A stretch of DNA of 64,000 bases from contig JAULBX010016637.1 in the NCBI GenBank assembly GCA_032358255.1, forward strand, positions 186,001-250,000, given 5' to 3'. Position 1 is the first letter of the stretch, and every line of letters begins with the position of its first letter. The stretch is from Heterotrichella gracilis (taxonomy: Eukaryota > Sar > Xanthophyceae > Tribonematales > Xanthonemataceae). The notes under the pieces were generated by a model. The model was not told where the DNA came from, ran no database searches, and was given only the letters and a program-made list of their open reading frames with translations. A program made the translations under genes and the position numbers. This document shows, in pieces, positions 4,324-20,300 of the stretch.

Positions 4324-7300
4324 ATGGACTGGGAGCTCAGCAAGGAAAACTATCAGCCTCTAAAGCATGGCAGGAGCGCCTCCAAGCTTGCCCCTGCCAA
4401 GCCGCTGTTGCACAGAAACATGGAAGCCATCGAAGCGGAGCGCGGGTCAGTACACTGCTTATTGAAGTCCTAGATGACGCAAATAGGAGCATGCACTGAA
4501 CTGTTTCCACTGCTGCGATTCAGGAACTTCTGGCAACAGATTGAAAGCTACCGTGGCGAAGATCCCCTAGACTTGTGGCTAAGGTACAAAGCTTCCTTTG
4601 TTGCCCTACCACTACCGATGAAAGCGTCCCAACCTGTAGTACTGCTTCCGCAGGTTCATCAAATGGACGCAAGAGACCTTCAAGACAGGTGGCCACCAAG
4701 CTGAGCTGCTGCCCTTGCTGGAGAAGTGCACAAGGGAACTGCAGTTTGTGGATAAGTACAGAAGCGATCAGCGGTATCTGCGTGTGTGGATACAGTATGT
4801 AAGTTCCCTCTGGTTGTTGGACCCTATGTATCAGTGCATGGGTGTGCTGTGTTACTAAGCGCGTATACTTCTGCAGGCTGACTGCTTGCCAGAGCCAAAG
4901 GACGTCTTCACTTTCTTGAAGGTAAGTGGTTGTGAGCCAGCTGTCTGTAGGTATACGGGCATAACAAGCATATGCTGGGCAATGGTTGCAACTGCACTGT
5001 GTTACCCTCACAGGAGAATGAGATTGGCCAAGACTTTGCGCTGTACTACATGGCCTATGCAGCCTATCTGGAGCTGCGTGGCAACCACGCCAGGGCTGAC
5101 GCAGTGTATCAAGCTGGCATCAACAGGTGGGTGACTTGTCCTGTCCGCTGCAGTCTTGCTGTCCCTGTGCAGGGCAGTGTACTCAACTTTGAGTGACTGC
5201 TGTGTCGCAGGCGTGCCACGCCAGTGGAGAAGTTGAAACAGAAGGCAGCAGAGTTTCAGCAGAGGATGGTAAGTTGATTTGCTTTTTTCCAGCTATCCTG
5301 CCATTCGTACCGCACAGCAGGGGGTTAACGTGCGCACACACCTTCAGGCCAAGCGGATAGAGAAGCAAGCGATGGAGGGCCCAGTGCTGGCGCCTGCTAA
5401 CCTGGACAGTGAAAACAGGGCAGCGCTGGGGGGGCTGAAAGTGAAGGGTTCAGTGCGGAGGCCCTCGCGCACGGCTGCTGCATTCCTGCCACTGGGTGCA
5501 AAGCGGAAAGTGCCTGGCCCTGACAAGGAGAACAGCCAGTCAGGGCTGGAGGTATTTGTGGATGAGGAGTTCCAGGCTGGCCAGGGTCCCATGTCTGCCC
5601 TCCCAGACCTCAGCACAGGCTCAGGCTGGGCTTCCCTGCCCACCTTTGAGCAGTCACGCAAGGAGAATGTCCAGAAGCCGTCCGCATGGAACGATGCCCG
5701 CCTCCCGCAGAAGAAAGCCAAGGCCAGCATGCCTGCCCTGGACATCCCTGAAGATGAAGACCTGCAGGGAGCTGCGCCTGCACCTGCGAGCACTGCGCAG
5801 CCAACCCTGAGGCAGCGGCTAGACACACAGGCCACCAGCATCCCATTGGAGGAGTGCCTGCAGAGGGACCCGCTGAGGCTGCACAAGGTACCACGCTCTT
5901 ACCTCACCTCAGCACCCTAAGCACTTCCATTTTGGGTGATTGCTTGCATGAATTGACCCCGCATGCTGTACTTGTACTCATATTTGTTTTGAATATATGT
6001 ACTACAAGATACATCCAATACCAGAATTGCTACAATTATCGGTTTATAACAGACTATCCATTACAAATTCCCCATAATTATGTGTGTGACGCGCACAGGC
6101 TGGTGGTGATCACCCGGATGCGCACCCCAGTGCAGCAGCCAGCGCGCCAGCCAAGCCAGTACTTGCAGCAGCAAGGAAGGGGGAGGCGTTTGGGTTTTCG
6201 GAGCAGCTCTACTCCCACAGGGAGGACCTCACCTTTGAGGAGCAGCGGGCAGCGCACTGGCACACCACCTCCAAGCTGACAGCAGAGGAGCCCATGGCGT
6301 TCTGCCCCACAGTCAGTGCGCCACCAGCCATGCCGGACGCCCACGCGCCTGGGCTCCAACAATCATCAGCGCGCCATGGCCAGCAGGGGGGCGCACATGC
6401 ACATGCACCGCAGGGCAGGTTTGCAGACGACTCCCCGCCGCGCCACTCTGCATTTGAGCCCACCATGACCATCTCTACCAGGGACGCCCTGGCAGCCATC
6501 AAGGCAACCCTCAATGGGGACCTGCACTCCCATGGCAGCAGCTACTACCAGGAGGCTGCGCCAGCATATGAGCCCACAGTCACCATCAGCACAAAGGAGG
6601 CATTCTCATTCCTGAATGAGATGTTCCAGAGCAGCCTTCCGCACGAGGCCAAGCAGGCGCAGCGCAAGGCCTCACGCAGGGCCTCCACCGCTCTGGCGCC
6701 ACAGCAGAACCTGGATGTTGAGCCTCAAGCACCTGCACAGGCGCCAGACCTGCTCGCTGTGTATGAGGACACACAGTTCATCCCATCCATCTCAGTGCCA
6801 CCCTCAACTGTAGATGAAGCGGTGCAGGGTTCATTCCCTGATGACATCTGCGTGTATGAGGATACCCAGCTGCTAGGTGATGCACAGCGGCAGGCTGCAA
6901 TTGCCAGCACCACTGGCGCAGGATTCAGCATGTTTGAGGATGCGCCGCAGCAGCCTGCGGTGGCCAGCACCAGTGGCTTCAGCATTTACGAGGACACACA
7001 GCTGGTGGATTCGTCTGTGCTGGCTGCGCCACCTGCTGCGCATGGTTCCTTCCATGTGCATGAGGATACACAGCCATTTACAGATCAGCCCGGCAGCAGC
7101 CCAGGTCTGCAGGTGTATGAGGAGACGCAATTCCTGCAGCCACAGCCACAGTTCTCGCCACACCCGCGGCATCCAGTGCTGACAGAGGTACGTGGTGCAC
7201 AAAATTGCGCGATCCCCCACGAACCATGTGTGCTTCATCACTGCATGGTAAATATGTCCACATGTTTAGAGTGCATGCGTTTCGGCATTTGGTATTGCTG

Positions 7301-10231
7301 CCGTCATGCAAATGACCCAAGTACTGGCTCGAATTATTGACTAGCAATGACTGCCGGTGCAGGTGGATGCTGGTGATCTGGTTGACGAGCATGATGGGAA
7401 GGAGAATCCTGGCGATGCAGTGGGCTCCACCTCAGGGCGGAGGCTGTCTGACCCTGAAGTGGCAGCGGCTGTGCTGCAGCCCCTGGCGCAAGATCGTGCT
7501 GCGCTGATGGGCATTGAGCGGGTGGATGCCATGGAAGAGGATGGGCAGTCTGTCCCAAACCTGGTAAGCGGCAGGCCCTTGGCACATGCATGTACATTGC
7601 TGCATGCCGGAAACAGTTAGCGCCTTGTAAACTGCTGCATATGCGGCTTGGTACTGCAATGGTTGCATGTTAGTACCGGTATCAATAAAGGGGAAATAAG
7701 GTGGACGATTAATTACAGATGCAGCGCTCACCCCACCATCTGTGCCTGCCCAGGCCGCCATTGATGTGGACACACGTGGCGACGACTTCCATGTGTATGA
7801 GGACGCCATGGTGGGCCAGCTGGAGCTGGAGATGGGCTGCATGACCACAAGGGACCAGGCGGACCCAGGGGTGGATGCAGGGGGTGCGCCGCCTGCGACC
7901 ATGCTCATCAACCCCTTTGAGCTGGAGCTCCAGACGCAAGTGCTGCACTCGCTGGAGCCACCCATTGAGGAGGTGAGCTGACCTTATTGAGTTTAATCTG
8001 GACTCACCAACCTGCCTGGCTTGTGAGCTTGTTTTGACAGTAATTTTTATTTGTCAGGATTGCATCGGAGGGATCACAGGGATTAGGTTTTTAAAGAGCT
8101 TGTATTGACCCCGTCCTGTCCTCCACCACGCAGTGGCCCATGTGCGGCACGTGCTCAGAGCAAGAGGCTGACCTTGCAGCGGAGGCGCTGCAGCAGGTGC
8201 GCCATGCCAGCAGGGGGAACAAAGTCATCAACCTCGCGGGGCAGACGCTGCTGGTGGCCAGCTGCGTTGGCAAGGGGGCATACGCATCGGTGTACCAGGT
8301 GAGCCACGGAGATTGCAATAAATGTTTTGCGCTGCTAAAGAAATAAATCAATTAAAATATATTTAGTAATAAAATATTATGATATTTACACAATGCTTGT
8401 TAAATCATTTTTGTTAGCGGGAATATTATCCTACGGATTTTATATACTTGATGTTAACCGGCATGGCTTTTGCAACCACAATGATCACAATGACTGTATG
8501 CGTGCAGGTGAATGCACTGGATGAGGCCGGTCAGCCTTGCCAGTACGCCCTCAAGGTGCAGTCGCCCCCTTGCCCCTGGGAGTTCTACATCTGCCAGGCC
8601 CTGCACGGCCGCACCCACGCCTCCATGGCGCCTGGCTTTGTGCACCCGCACCACCTGTTCCTCAGCCCCACGCGCAGCCTCATGCTCATGAGCCACGGGG
8701 ACCATGGCACCCTGCAGGACGTCATCAACATGTACCTGTCAACTGGAAAGGTAGGTCCTCAATCGCCTGCAAAGAAAATTGATGCACTCTTGCTGGGTGG
8801 AGGTGTGCTGCATGGGATTTTCATTGTTGTTCACTGGAGGCAATTTGACCGATTATCCTGCGCCCTGTGTCCCGCAGCGCATGGACGAGAGCCTGGCCAT
8901 GTACTACACAGTGGAGCTGCTGCGACTGGTCAACGAGCTGCACCGCTGCCTGGTCATCCACGCGGACATCAAGCCCGACAACCTGCTCATCCGCACAGAC
9001 GACTCGCTGGGGTGGGAGGACTGGCAGCCGGGCGCGGTGGGCACGTGGGCGCAGCGGGGCCTGCAGCTCATTGACTTTGGGCGCTCAGTGGACATGGCGC
9101 TGCTGCCAGAGGGGGTGCAGTTCCTGGTGAGGCTGCCGGACAATTTAGGGTTTGAAGCTGGGTTCAGATACCATACTGAAATCTTGAAGGAGTGATTTTG
9201 GTAACTAATTATGGAAATGATTTTCATTCAAAATGCACTGCATGAGTTTGAGACATTCATTTGGCTGGCAGTCAGCTATATCTTGTCAGCCAGGGGCAAT
9301 GGTGTGTGTGCTGTGCCATGTTGTGGTGTGTGCCTGGCGTGAATTGACATTCAGACATTTATGTTGTGTGGCCATGCCGCAGGGTGACAGCATGACGGAG
9401 AGCTTCCGGTGCATTGAGATGCAGGAGGGGCGGCCATGGGTGTACCATGTGGATGCCTATGGCATCGCGGGCGTGGTGCACTGCATGCTGTTTGGGGAGT
9501 ACATGGCTGTGGAGAAGGTGACACGCATGCAAGGTGAGGACCAACATGAACATTGCACAAGCGCTTAGAATCTTGCTAGTACAGGGCTTGAATACCAGAA
9601 TTGGATCAATAGTGTCAACCAGTGATAGTACAGGTGCACCTAGGTGCTTGTCTTGTCCTGTTTTCAGATTTAGCCAGTCAGTAAAACCCTAGCTCTTTAA
9701 ACCCTACAATAGGTTATGATCAGGCCTACTGTTACCAGGTGGTGTGGGGTACCGCGTAAAGAATCCCATGCGACGCTACTGGGCGGTGCCACTGTGGGAG
9801 GCGCTGTTTGATACCCTGCTTGAGGGCGATTACTACACACAGCCGCCGCCGCTGCATGACCTCATGGCGCGCTTTGAGGGACATCTGGCTGGCCATCCCG
9901 ACATGGGGCACAAGATCAAGTCAGAGCTCATGAAGCAGGTGCGGCTGGTTGTCTTGACGCTGGGTGCATGGCTGTCATAATTGTCAACGCAGGTGCTGAT
10001 GTTGCAGCAGCTAAACTTATCTGGCTTGCCACGAGGAGAATTATATTGCATATAAACCCAAACGCGTCATATAAAGGTACCTCCTGTGCTGGGCATGGTA
10101 CTGAGGTCTTGAGCTGGCCTTTGCAACTTTGGTAGGGGCGGAAACGGAAACACCGGGCCCGGTGGCTGGCAAATTTAATACTGACAGTGTTGTGCATGCA
10201 GAACATCATGACGGAGCGGTACAGGAGCTGA
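4324..10231 (+). CDS. BUB1: MadBub: combined BUB1/BUBR1(MAD3)-type spindle checkpoint kinase
   Basis: Exons: 4324-4445, 4524-4583, 4654-4798, 4877-4921, 5014-5126, 5211-5268, 5348-5887, 6099-7187, 7363-7563, 7754-7972, 8134-8298, 8508-8750, 8878-9126, 9383-9533, 9739-9938, 10202-10231; 1209 aa in one frame. N-terminal KEN box (SKENYQ, aa 7-9), then the Mad3/Bub1 TPR domain (FIKWTQETFKTGGH; ENEIGQDFALYYMAYAAYLE). Further KEN boxes lie at aa 241, 286 and 737. A GLEBS-like Bub3-binding motif (EDLTFEEQRA) lies near aa 395-416. Two CM1-like motifs (EPTMTISTRDALAAI, EPTVTISTKEAFSFL) are at aa 481 and 519; CM1 binds MAD1 in human BUB1. Seven ABBA-like repeats follow, then a kinase domain from about aa 905 with GKGAYASVY, K935 in YALKV, HADIKPDN (D1030) and IDFGRS (D1066). 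The catalytic residues are present, so it is likely active. Role: kinetochore scaffold and APC/C-Cdc20 inhibitor. The start is fixed by the N-terminal KEN box. Confidence 0.95.
6753..7124 (+). repeat. Coding array of ABBA-like degron repeats in MadBub
   Basis: Six repeats of the form [FLI]-x-[VIM]-[YFH]-E-[DE] lie in exon 8: LAVYEDTQF (aa 580), ICVYEDTQL (611), FSMFEDAPQ (637), FSIYEDTQL (655), FHVHEDTQP (679), LQVYEETQF (698). A seventh, FHVYEDAMV, is in exon 10 (aa 803), and LEVFVDEE follows the KEN box at aa 241. They fit or approach the published ABBA consensus F-x-[ILV]-[FHY]-x-[DE] for binding Cdc20 or Cyclin A. Spacing of 18-31 residues between the first six, with a shared TQ tail in five of them, suggests tandem expansion. 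Confidence 0.8.
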
Positions 10232-14305: not shown

Positions 14306-17300
14306 ATGGCACACTCACAGAAGGCATGGATGCCGCTGCTGGTGCCCAACGCAGAGGACCCGCCTGCCCTCCGAAAGCTCAAGCGGGACTGCCTGGAGAA
14401 TATCAGACAGGTACGGATTGGTCCCACGTGCACAGCGTGGGATGCCTTGTGTCAGTTGCTAGCTAATACTGTGGGTCAAAATGACAAAACACTGATGGCA
14501 TGCACCACCACCCACTTGCAGGCTTGGCTCGCCCGGCTGAAGCTTGTGACTGATCAGCAAGCAGACCCAGTTCTGGCGGCACCACCAGCTGCTGTTGAGC
14601 GCCAGCCACTGGCAGCGTTGCCCACACAGCAGGTTGTGGCCACATGTGGTGGACAGGACGCCCCAGGCGCTGCTACCCCCCTCGGGGAAGGCAGTGCACC
14701 ACCTCACCTCAGCCAAGGCCAGCAAGCCGTCAACCCCTGCCCATCACAGCATCACCCGGAGGCTGAACCCACCCACCAGCCACCACAGGACCCCGCAGGG
14801 TTGGCTCCAGTGAGCGAAGGCCATGGGACTAGACAACAAGATGCAACTCCAGATGCTGGGCAGCCGGCCAATACAACCTCCCAGCCACCAAACTTTTCAC
14901 ATCAGGAAGCAGGTGCTAGCCATAGCTTCCGTGACAGAGAGGCTGGGCCTCCCCCGGCAGCCCAGCGGGCTGCCGGGGGCCACACCCCAGCTGGGGAGGA
15001 AGCCACCTACCACACACCCCTTGCGCATAAGCTCCCCGCACCTGGGCTGGAGGCTGGGTTTGGTGCCAAGGCTTCCCAGCGCGCCAGCAGCGAGATTGAC
15101 ACGGATGGGCTGTATGCTAGCCAGGGGCCAACTGCAGGTGCGGAAATCTCCAAGTAGTGCACATGCCAAGTTGGCATTGCCTTACAGTAGGACAACCCCT
15201 GACCAGTGCTGTGCGTCCTGCAGTGTGGCACGTTCTTTTCCCAGACCTGTTGCAAATGTACCTTTTCAGCTGCTGCATCTCCACTGCACTGTAAGCATTG
15301 ACCAAATGGTTATTTATAGTGAGCATATTCATATGAAGTACTACAGAGACATGGGTATTTTGCCTGACGTCCCTTCCTGGTGCTGCCTGTAGGCTCCCGC
15401 CGGCAGCGCCCCGCCAACCGCAGCGCGCCACATGGCAGCCTGGCAGACCACCTGAAGCGGCGGTACAAGGGGGGCGGGGCCGGGGGGGCGCCAGGTGGCG
15501 GCGCCGCAGGAGGAGGCGCGGGAGGTGCCCGGGTGGGCCAGCTGGCGCTCATGGCCGCGCCCCGACCACAGGCGCCTGCCCTGCCAGTGGATGAGGGCGA
15601 GTGGCAGCACCAGCACCCATCACATGGGGATGTACAGCACCAGCAGTGGCAGCAGCAGCAGCAGCACCCAGCTCAGGGGGAGGTGCAGCACCGACACCAC
15701 CACCAGCAGGTGCAGCAGCAGCACAGGCTTGGGCAAAGTGCTGGCAGGGCTGATGCTGTGCAAGGTGAGAATTTTACAGCATTTGCCGGCGCCCCAATCA
15801 GCACCACATGTTGCATGCGCTCCTCGCTGAGAAGTACAAATGGAAATACACGGATTTAGGGTCATAAAAAGCTGCACCACAACTGCCATGCCACTCCACA
15901 GATGCCAGTGCGTGTGCGCACTCCATTGAATGGCATAGATTGGCCACCATCTTCTTTCAACCCCCTTTACCTCCACTCCCTTCTTGCACAGGGGAATGGA
16001 ACAAGGTCACCCGCACAGCACCGCACAGGGCTTCTGCTCTGGCAAGCCTGGTGAATAGGCCGCAGCCCGCCTCAACCCACCCAAAACATGAGCGGCCCTC
16101 CAGTGGTACTGGGAGCCACATCCCAAACCCTAGCCGTGGTGCACACCCTACCAATGGCATGCACCGCCAGCCGAGGGACCACGCGCATGAGGAAGGTGCA
16201 GGGATCCCCAGGGATGCCGGTTCCTCTTTCTACGGGCGAGAAGGGGCCATGGAGGGCGCATCGCACACTGAGAGCGCAGCCCCTGGCGGGGCGGTGGCGG
16301 AGGGCTGGCGGGATGCGGGCGCAGGGGGTTTGGCCTCCCGCTCACACCCCACCAGTGGTGGCCCATCTGGCTCCTGGACCATCCCCTCGGCCTCTGGGAG
16401 CACCCCCAGCGTGCATGCCGCACCCCTGGGATGCGATGCATCCGCACCCCCGGGATGCCATGTACCGGCAGCATGTGGCAGCACCTCCGCTGACGTGGCG
16501 CATGCGCAGCGCCCAAATGGTGCGCCCTTTGCACCCCTGGGCAGCAGCCTGGGGGGAGGTGGTGTGCCTGGTGGTGTGGCGGCCATGGCAGCCTCACATG
16601 CAGCGCTGGCAGGGGCTAGCCAGGGCGGTGGTGGTGGCCAGCAGATGGTGGGTGGTGGTGGGCTGGTGGTGGGTGCGGGCGCCTCGGAGGTCGTTGCAGA
16701 CACGCCTGACGACCTGGCGCCCTCGCTGCCCCACCACCCCGCCCTGCTGCCCGCCCAAAACCCTCGTAGGGTAATCGGGGGGCTGGGGTGGCAGGACATG
16801 GTGGCGGACACCCCTGATGACCTTCTGCCCCCCTCCGCCAGCCTGCAGCGCCCCAGCACCCTCCCAGATGCCCTGGCTGACGCAGCGCTGCTCAACCCCA
16901 TACAGCAGGAGAACGGTTCTCGAGGGGGGCACAAAATCCTTGGACAGCGGGAAACCCTAGGGAGCGGGGGCGAGGACCCTATCATTCCGGATTCTGGCAC
17001 AATGAGTGGCGGCTCCCATGCGCCAGGTTGCGACTCCACCACCTGGGATGGCAGTAATCCCCGTGGCAGCAGCCAGGGGCCCACCAGCAGTGGGGGCGAG
17101 AGCAGCGAGCCGGAGAGGGGAGGGAACCCCGGCGAAGGAGCCCAACGGGTGGGTGGTGCGCAGGCTCAGTGCGCTGCTCCTCCCCTGCCCGAGGGTGCTG
17201 ATTGTATCATAGCCACCCCTGCGGTGGCCAGGTCAGATGAGGTCATCCCAGCGACACCTGGCAGCGGGGAGCCCAGGGCTGCGCAGCCATCAAGGGGGGC

Positions 17301-20300
17301 GAATGTGGTCCAGGTCAAGGGGGTGGATCCAGTGGTCGACCTCATCACTGAGTTTGTGCGGCTGGATGCATCAGGAGCCGCTGACAGGGGTGCTGCTGGC
17401 TGTTTTCCTGGGGAGGCCATTGGTGCAGCAGCCAGTAATGATGTGGTCGGTGCGGCCACCGCCAGGGGTGATGCTGCCTTTCCATTCGAGGAGGTCATTG
17501 CTGCAACAGCTGCAGTCGATGGCAGCACTACCTCGACAGCTGGTGCTGCAATTGGTTGTGGGCTGGGGGCGGGGATGATTCCAGATAGGGAGATGCGACA
17601 ATCGCCCACAGGGGTGGTCACTGCTCCTGTGCCAGGGGGACAGTCTCGTGTGGGGATTGAGATTGCGCTGCCGCATCCGGTGATAGCCTCTGCTGTGGAT
17701 GATAGTGGGAGGTACGTGTACTGCATCAAACCCTAAACCCTAAAGAGAAAGCTTGTTTTCGTGAATGACAGCGGAAGTTATGCGCATATTGTTGCTGTGT
17801 GGCCATTACATTCCAGTACGTACGGTAATAATATGGATTGCATGTGGGTAGCCATGTGGGAAGCACGACCCAGTATGACAGCATCATGGAATGCAGCACC
17901 ACCACCGCCGACACCCTTTGGCGTCTCTAATCCCCACCTCTCCGTCGCCATACCCCCACCACCCACCCACCCCACCTCCGCACCCACCCGCAGGTTCATC
18001 AGCGTGTGCACCCACAGCCCTGGGGAGGGGCCACCCGCGCTGCTGCTGCTCGACTGCGGGCCGCCCCCTGGCACCATGCCACATGGCACCACGCCACATG
18101 GCGACTCACCGCGAGTGGTTGGCCAGTGGCGGTGCCAGCGCCTGCCCAATGTGTTCCAGGACGTGCGCCTGCACCCGGGGCAGTGCGTAGCGGTGACAGC
18201 TGGCAGGTGGGGATGGGCTGGATCCGCTTGGGGATGGACTGGTTGCGCATGGGGGAAAGGCCGAACGGGCATGCGACCCCTTGGATGATTGTCACATTGC
18301 TTGAGCTGTACTTAGATTGTGTGGGTGGGGTGGGGCGTTGTCATGTGCAGCGTGCACTCATCAAGATCACACCCAACGGGTCCAACGGGGGAAATATTAG
18401 TAGTGTATTTCTATCTCAATCCTTGCCTTCTTTACTGCTGCATCAGATCATGAGTACACCGCAGTAACACTCCCCTCCATTCTCCCACAGCTACGCTCCC
18501 CTCCTGGCCGCACTGGGGCTGTTTGGCCTGGCGGGTGGGCCGCATGGCGCCAGCGGCTCCGCCTGTGTGCACCTGGTGGGGGTTCAGGGGAGTGCTGCCC
18601 CGCTGGCGCTGCCCGCGGCCACCCCCGTCATGTGCATTATGTGGCTGCAGGGGGGGGTGCTGATGGGGGCAGGTGGGTGCGGTGGACTGCACACCCCTGT
18701 GCATGATGAATACCCAATCAAGAAGACTTTTACTATTATTATTATAGTGTATTATTATCATTTAACAGCTATGAGGATGTCATGGTTGTGGTGGACTGTG
18801 CTCAGCTTGCATCACGGCATGTGCAGCGTGCAGGGTGCACCATTGGGCATGCATTGCACATGCACATAAGCAGGCCGCACCACTGGCATGGCTTGCGTGT
18901 GCGAATGGATGGAATAATGCATTGTGTGCATGGCACCCAGCATGGCATGCGAGCCCTGATTTAGGGCATGGACAGGCACACACAGCCTCGAGCCAGGGTT
19001 GGGTTGCAAGGGGTGTCGTATGCCTGTGCAGGGGAGGGCGGCAGGGTTTGCCTGTGGCGCATGCGCGAGGACATGCAAGGGGTGCGCGACAGCGTGGAGC
19101 TCCCACAGGCGCAATTCCACCGGGTGAACTTCACAGACATCGTGCAACTATCGTGCCTCCCTGGCAACAAGGTGCGGCAAGGACATGATGCCCCTGCAGG
19201 CGTTGCCTTGATTGGCCACTACAGTGCATATGGCACACGCCAGGCCGCTTGGGTGTATATGTGACGTATATAATGTGACGTATATAATGTGTGGCTTGGC
19301 TTAATCAAATTAATTATCATAGCTTTAAATTTTGTTGATCTCCAAAAAAAATGCAATGAATGGCCTCGCATATTTTATTTTGTTCACTGTTCCTCATTCT
19401 TATGTGGTTGTGGGTGCAGGGCATTGTGGCTGGGTGTGGGTCCACCGGGGCGCTGGCAGTGTGGAACGTGGACACAAAGCAGCTGCTCATGGCCCGACAG
19501 GACGCCTCCTACGCCTTCTCATGCGCACAGCTCCTCCCCTGGAGCGTGGTCCAAGGGGGGGGCAGGATGGCGGCAGGGGCGGGGGGGAAAGCAGAGCCAG
19601 TGCTCATGCTGTCGCTGGTCCAGGCGCAAGGGGGGGGAGATAAGGGAGATGGGTGGGAGGTGGCGCCCGTGGTGCTGACGCCCTCCTCGGCACTGGTGGG
19701 CCACCGGTACCCCATCCAGGTAGGCTGCTGGCTCCACATGTGGCGTGGTGTGCTTGAACTATATTAATCAGTTAGTATGTATGTTTACCCCTGCTTGAGC
19801 TGTGGATGTGCGCCAATACGGTATTAGATGTTGATTTGTCTGGGACTGCGCATGACATTAAGGGCACAGAAAGGGCGGCATCGGGTCCAATATGTGGATT
19901 CCAGTAGAAACCTGGAAAGGCAATGGTGCCGGCAATTGAATGGGGGTGATTCCATGTGATTTGACCAGATCTGCCATTGTGTTTGCAGGGCGTGAGCTGC
20001 ATTGCGGTGTGTGGCGCGTTTGCGGTAGTGGGCACGACATCAGGCAGCATCATGGCGTGGGGCGTGGAGAAGGTGAGTGGCGCAGTGGGCAGCAACCCTT
20101 TTGTAAGTTGAATTAAAATGAAAGGCTTGCAAACTGCGCATTGAATAATGCCATATGATTGCCATGCATGATGAAAAGTTTGCGACAGGAAGTTTGCGAC
20201 CAACTTAACTGCACATTTGGCGCGAAAGGGTTAATGTTGTGATCAACTCCCTCGTCGCCAGGCGCAATCATGAGTATGCTTTTGAAATGTCTCATCACCA

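Follow-up and report, generated by a model that had tools for sequence, protein, structure and literature searches.

Between the TPR domain and the kinase of its MadBub protein, the alga Heterotrichella gracilis carries an array of seven ABBA-like motifs (aa 580-808), located just after two copies of the CD1 motif. On balance, this array is probably a flexible multivalent dock for Cdc20 beside a doubled dock for Mad1. The MadBub gene lies at 4324-10231 on the plus strand of the window, i.e., the whole stretch of 64,000 nucleotides that was analyzed, and all coordinates of MadBub features given below refer to this strand. The genome comprises 68.5 Mb in 903 contigs, with intron-rich genes and 43 matches to chlorophyll a/b-binding proteins, which mark the organism as a eukaryote that is photosynthetic.

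The MadBub gene and its motif order

The gene model, which was spliced by hand, has 16 exons with GT-AG borders at 15 of 15 introns and a CDS of 3630 nt in a single open frame, encoding 1209 aa. Its identity as MadBub, already proposed in a preliminary description made from the sequence letters, is confirmed by matches to both the TPR domain and the kinase. Pfam Mad3_BUB1_I (PF08311) reaches 143.1 bits against a cut-off of 31.4 (E 5.3e-42), Pkinase is matched at aa 908-1124 (E 3.1e-12), and the PDB relatives are BubR1, Bub1, and Mad3 chains, BubR1 covering the N-terminal part and Bub1 the kinase. The TPR domain (aa 39-160, profile positions 2-123 of 123) extends over 4438..5121 (exons 1-5, introns included). 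The kinase domain extends over 8218..10228 (exons 11-16) and matches the BUB1 kinase 6jkk_A at aa 893-1178 with E 9.7e-46; ALK, HADIKPDN, and DFG are all present in its translation.

The motifs are arranged in the order KEN1, TPR, an extra KEN box, ABBA1, KEN2, an ABBA2-like motif, a GLEBS-like stretch, and two CD1 copies, followed by array copies 1-6 (aa 580-703), a KEN box, copy 7 (aa 803), a CDII-like motif, and the kinase. KEN1 (WELSKENYQPLKHGR, 4342..4350) is N-terminal to the TPR domain and aligned with human BubR1 WELSKENVQPLRQGR; a KEN string at aa 124, inside the TPR domain, was set aside as belonging to the fold. The GLEBS-like stretch (aa 393-415, 6195..6263), which by resemblance we take to be a putative Bub3-binding site, gave no match in a PDB search at E up to 10. 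The motif INPFELELQTQVLHSL (7907..7954), located before the kinase, is presumably CDII-like.

An ABBA1-W-KEN2-W-ABBA2 cassette, with the order and the Trp residues present, is found at aa 248-317. The LEVFVDEE that had been reported beside a KEN box corresponds to its ABBA1, LEVFVD (5546..5563, aa 248), 32 aa before KEN2 (5660..5668); the translation places W275 and W295 around the latter, and KEN2 is defined by two flanking Trp (Tromer et al. 2016, PMC5204127). Human BUBR1 has a cassette with this order and with Trp residues on both sides of KEN2, whereas the alga has its own spacing (32 and 23 aa) and a further KEN box just before ABBA1 (5525..5533). After KEN2, at 23 aa, an ABBA2-like LDIPED (5738..5755) was seen that is absent from the preliminary description; it is assigned by its position, and is a weak cassette member that escapes the relaxed pattern defined below. 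APC/C inhibition itself would be carried out by the N-terminal KEN1 together with this cassette.

The gene is most likely the single, undivided (kinase-bearing) MadBub of the alga. No second MadBub was found in a genome search that scores the best candidates only, in an assembly that may be incomplete: 15 of the 20 matches to the full-length protein were the MadBub gene itself and the remaining five were weak matches in the kinase region (E 0.002-0.3). The TPR domain has three matches in the genome, two in the MadBub gene and one on contig C200, and the latter was rejected as a second MadBub because the frames downstream of it can be read by eye as those of an Mps1-like kinase. This Mps1-like gene (C200:135200-145190, by eye) combines an N-terminal KEN segment, YIDKENVG, with the Mad3/Bub1-type TPR match and then a kinase.

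The ABBA-like array and the doubled CD1

All seven copies match a relaxed ABBA pattern, [FILVY].[ILVM][FYH].[DE], and three of them also fit the strict ABBA consensus, Fx[ILV][FHY]x[DE]. Copies 1-6 are held by the exon 6099-7187, namely, LAVYED-TQ (copy 1, 6753..6776, aa 580), ICVYED-TQ (copy 2, 6846..6869, aa 611), FSMFED followed by AP without TQ (copy 3, 6924..6941, aa 637), FSIYED-TQ (copy 4, 6978..7001, aa 655), FHVHED-TQ (copy 5, 7050..7073, aa 679), and LQVYEE-TQ (copy 6, 7107..7130, aa 698). Copy 7, FHVYED followed by AM without TQ (7787..7804, aa 803), is held by the exon 7754-7972. Copies 4, 5, and 7 are the strict ones; in the others, position 1 is L or I, or position 3 is M, and working ABBA motifs can depart from the consensus (Di Fiore 2016, PMC5179498). 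The TQ tail is present on five of the seven copies, T and Q being both present in these and both absent in the other two, and it is followed by F, L, L, P, and F, respectively. The seven repeats and five TQ tails of the preliminary description are therefore upheld. Its term "tandem" applies loosely: the spacing of the copies is irregular (31, 26, 18, 24, 19, and 105 aa) and no tandem array of the ABBA unit is in the TRF list. A further relaxed match (the ninth, with ABBA1 counted), at aa 1025, was excluded as belonging to the fold of the kinase domain. Between copies 6 and 7, a KEN box that had not been described before (aa 737, 7399..7407) lies 33 aa past the former and 63 aa before the latter, which gives a loose second ABBA-KEN-ABBA, looser than the cassette of human BUBR1.

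The ABBA-like array is real. In aa 190-862, eight relaxed matches (ABBA1 included) were seen against a shuffle mean of 0.26, three strict matches against 0.04, and five matches of the extended pattern [VIM][YFH]E[DE]TQ against 0.0001, and none of these counts was reached by any of 20,000 shuffles. For aa 575-720 alone, the two strict matches seen were reached by 3 of 20,000 shuffles. YEDTQ was considered as a genome-wide docking code and rejected, with seven sites in the genome versus nine for a reversed control pattern; three of the seven are in the array, and the frames around the other four are interrupted by a stop no more than about 50 codons away, on one side or both.

The linker that carries the array is probably disordered. 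An AlphaFold2 model of the exon with copies 1-6 (single sequence) has a mean pLDDT of 43.7 and leaves the array without secondary structure; as it was run without an alignment, its low pLDDT speaks only weakly for disorder. The four helices predicted in this exon are in both CD1 motifs, just past the second CD1, and, as a short helix, inside the GLEBS-like stretch.

The doubled CD1, a Mad1-binding motif located just upstream of the array, is absent from the preliminary description. CD1 (CMI) copy 1, EPTMTISTRDALAAIKATL (6459..6521), is a DNA repeat of copy 2, EPTVTISTKEAFSFLNEMF (6573..6635), with 74% identity over 38 nt (repeat D3). For copy 2, the sole PDB match at E up to 10 is the human BUB1 CD1 peptide 7b1f_C (E 0.056), and the first ABBA of the array follows after 42 aa. 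The human CD1 comprises BUB1 residues 458-476, with the sites S459 and T461, and an ABBA motif lies farther on, near residue 529 (PMC5472792). The alignment with copy 2 puts threonines opposite S459 and T461, and the idea of a phosphomimetic at the S459 position was dropped since a T is aligned there. In human Bub1, CD1 binds Mad1, for which the Mad1 RLK is needed, part of the Cdc20 is recruited through the ABBA close by, and the short distance between CD1 and ABBA was proposed to aid Mad2-Cdc20 formation (PMC5472792). The alga has CD1 and ABBA in the same order, but while human BUB1 is described with one of each, the alga has two CD1 and seven ABBA-like motifs. A Mad1 candidate in the genome, with RLK in the same frame, scored 31.2 bits versus a cut-off of 30; two of 14 control genomes also matched the family, at scores below this cut-off. 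A search for Mad2 via the HORMA profile gave no match in the alga genome and none in the controls either, and therefore says nothing about Mad2 in the alga.

Receptor and origin of the copies

ABBA motifs are named for their carriers cyclin A, Bub1, BubR1, and Acm1, and it is Cdc20 that binds them, through its WD40 domain (PMC5179498). Cyclin A, put forward earlier as a binding partner of the array, was rejected as a receptor, because it carries an ABBA motif instead of binding one; the suggestion confused the carrier with the receptor. By family, Cdc20 is the likely receptor of the array, with mixed evidence from the predicted pocket. The genome encodes Cdc20 on contig C252 (455 aa model) and Cdh1 on contig C113 (provisional splice model). 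Relative to human Cdc20, the algal protein keeps R262, W276, L281, V295, and R296, and has I for L261, A239 for Y279, and T240 for I280; at the human Y240 position it has H, as does Arabidopsis (by count in the alignment). The ABBA site of Arabidopsis CDC20 is formed by H196, L217, W233, H236, V252, and R253, with high variation there (PMC9357983), and H is found at the human Y279 position. Joint mutation of Y279 and I280 in human Cdc20 (printed as Y179E/I280Q) weakens ABBA binding (PMC5179498). At the positions of Y279/I280, algal Cdh1 has H/V, like the yeast Cdh1 chain 8a3t_B and in contrast to A/T in algal Cdc20, and this suggests that Cdh1 could be the better receptor; human Cdh1 has E/Q.

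At the DNA level, the five TQ copies belong to one repeat family of 21 nt, in which the other four are 76-86% identical to the reference copy. A linker is duplicated between copies 3 and 4 (79% over 39 nt, repeat D2; 60 nt start-to-start), and since both this linker and CD1 are duplicated, local duplication has been going on. Over all seven copies, star-tree counts gave 8 synonymous and 10 nonsynonymous changes for the extended core V-Y-E-D-T-Q (P = 0.008; pairwise dS 1.13, dN 0.22), 3 and 5 for V-Y-E-D alone (P = 0.11), 5 and 17 for the six ABBA codons (P = 0.26), and 5 and 5 for TQ (P = 0.057). Among the five TQ copies, which were picked for having TQ, V-Y-E-D-T-Q gave 6 and 3 (P = 0.0018; dS 1.46, dN 0.10 over 10 pairs), and three of three counted changes in the two TQ codons were synonymous (P 0.011). 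Moreover, the copies were recognized by their amino acids, which favors conserved ones. A scan of the DNA of aa 361-864 turned up no decayed copies: each of the six sites that reached 13 or more of 18 bases was a copy already counted. The sequences flanking the copies cannot be aligned (pN about 0.7). A strong claim of purifying selection was cut back, since the five-copy figures rest on TQ-chosen copies and the values for seven copies are weaker. With this and the recognition bias on one side, and the absence of decayed copies and the unalignable flanks on the other, selection on the extended core V-Y-E-D-T-Q is suggested, not proven; the selection on core residues considered in the preliminary description is thus modest for this core, and not significant for V-Y-E-D alone or the six ABBA codons. 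A search for relatives with the array in GTDB genome contigs gave nine pattern matches, none of which was confirmed.

Explanations of the array and its known counterparts

A multivalent Cdc20 dock would work as follows. Seven ABBA-like motifs in the linker right after two CD1 would raise the local Cdc20 concentration, and several weak sites would allow rapid rebinding of Cdc20. Held next to Mad1-Mad2 on CD1, Cdc20 would efficiently enter Mad2-Cdc20 and then the mitotic checkpoint complex, the formation of which would be placed at unattached kinetochores. This agrees with the motif excess, the counts for V-Y-E-D-T-Q, the lack of decayed copies, the CD1 match and duplication, the pocket residues kept in Cdc20, and the genes for Cdc20, Cdh1, an Mps1-like kinase, and a Mad1 candidate carrying RLK. 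It also agrees with the very low affinity of the single Acm1 ABBA for yeast Cdh1, which becomes high in combination with the KEN and D box (PMC8764033). In contrast, A239/T240 in Cdc20, the H/V of Cdh1, the number of strict copies (3/7), and the P values for V-Y-E-D alone and for the six ABBA codons (0.11 and 0.26) point against it. We infer that algal Cdc20 would be the receptor and that the array sites would act together. A further point against such a dock is that the C-terminal ABBA of human BUBR1 (ABBA3) was dispensable for the checkpoint in Tromer's assay (PMC5204127). The TQ tail would either extend the docking site or be phosphorylated, or it may be left over from the common ancestry of the copies.

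An unlikely explanation is that a short repeat spread through the linker near-neutrally, adding no function to that of one or two ABBA copies. The duplicated linker of copies 3 and 4, the duplicated CD1, and the irregular spacing would agree with such an expansion, and the selection test on the ABBA codons is weak (P 0.11 to 0.26) in a set of copies whose recognition by amino-acid pattern favors conserved ones; however, the P value for V-Y-E-D-T-Q over seven copies, the absence of decayed DNA copies, and the unalignable flanks argue against it. An Acm1-like role of the array, as a dock for Cdh1 instead of Cdc20 or for the two together, is quite unlikely as well; such a dock would restrain APC/C-Cdh1 or, with the KEN boxes, mark MadBub for destruction. 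The ABBA motif of Acm1 is bound in the WD40 groove, blades 2-3, of the APC/C activator (PMC9357983). Yeast Acm1 and the algal array have this motif class (A motif) in common, but Acm1 is a Cdh1 inhibitor, whereas the motif of the alga sits in a checkpoint kinase. The residues at Y279/I280 in algal Cdh1 and Cdc20 would suit a Cdh1 dock, and so would the three KEN boxes in aa 190-862 (shuffle mean 0.02; none of 20,000 shuffles reach three). Yet two pocket positions do not settle specificity, given E/Q in human Cdh1 and the H of Arabidopsis CDC20 at the Y279 position, and one of the three KEN boxes is KEN2, which is explained by checkpoint function. In addition, the ABBA motifs of Bub1 and BubR1 are known for Cdc20, and the array adjoins CD1 as in Bub1.

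Other explanations center on the TQ tails. SQ/TQ cluster domains, i.e., at least three SQ/TQ within 100 aa, are phosphorylated by ATM/ATR, and TQ occurs at aa 586, 617, 661, and 685, within about 100 aa. It is improbable that the tails are sites at which an ATM/ATR-type kinase switches each ABBA on or off and thereby couples checkpoint strength to DNA damage. T and Q are either both present or both absent in each copy, TQ is in excess in aa 575-720 (five versus 1.1 expected; reached by 31 of 20,000 shuffles), the changes in the TQ codons of the five chosen copies are all synonymous, and ATM has been reported, for human cells, to act on Bub3 and within the checkpoint. Over all seven copies, though, the TQ counts give P = 0.057, [ST]Q shows no excess in aa 190-862 (eight versus 6.5 expected), and docking or shared descent would explain a kept TQ just as well. 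A related proposal, to which little probability is given, is that each repeat is a compound ABBA-TQ element, which joins a Cdc20-docking motif to a TQ that can be phosphorylated. As a graded switch, the array would let an ATM/ATR-type (or other) kinase tune the Cdc20 number per MadBub beside two Mad1 docks, and one undivided protein would set checkpoint strength. Finally, ladders for dynein light chain (LC8) have several xDTQ-like motifs in a linker, and the residue after TQ is usually T, V, or C. The likeness of the array to such ladders and two LC8-family matches in the genome would fit TQ-centred motifs that dimerize or scaffold the protein, but this is highly improbable: the residues after TQ are unlike the usual ones, the V-Y-E ahead of TQ is an ABBA requirement, and two copies keep the ABBA core without TQ.

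Whether read as a multivalent Cdc20 dock or otherwise, the array is not categorically new, because ABBA repeat arrays have been reported in Physcomitrella MAD, basidiomycetes, and stramenopiles (Tromer et al. 2016, PMC5204127), contrary to the earlier view that an array is unexpected. Those arrays are ABBA repeats in a Bub1/BubR1-family protein beyond the KEN2 pair, which is also what the seven copies of the alga are. As far as the published description of those arrays goes, the alga is set apart by a kinase-bearing MadBub for which no second copy was found, an array just after a doubled CD1, and TQ on five of seven copies; the TQ coupling and the doubled CD1 need not be unique to it. Among the matches listed for ABBA with MadBub, algae, Physcomitrella, and Chlamydomonas, no titles or abstract starts reported an algal ABBA array. 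The array is a naturally occurring case in which to ask whether the checkpoint becomes stronger as one protein carries more Cdc20 and Mad1 docks, in an organism in which the Bub1 and BubR1 functions appear undivided, and TQ offers a concrete, testable ABBA extension or phospho-switch. If copy number alone matters, the array is one more case of the known arrays. Elsewhere in the window, at 15868-17736, a 622-aa open frame of low complexity was observed, with repeated ADTPDDL and ATP-containing motifs.
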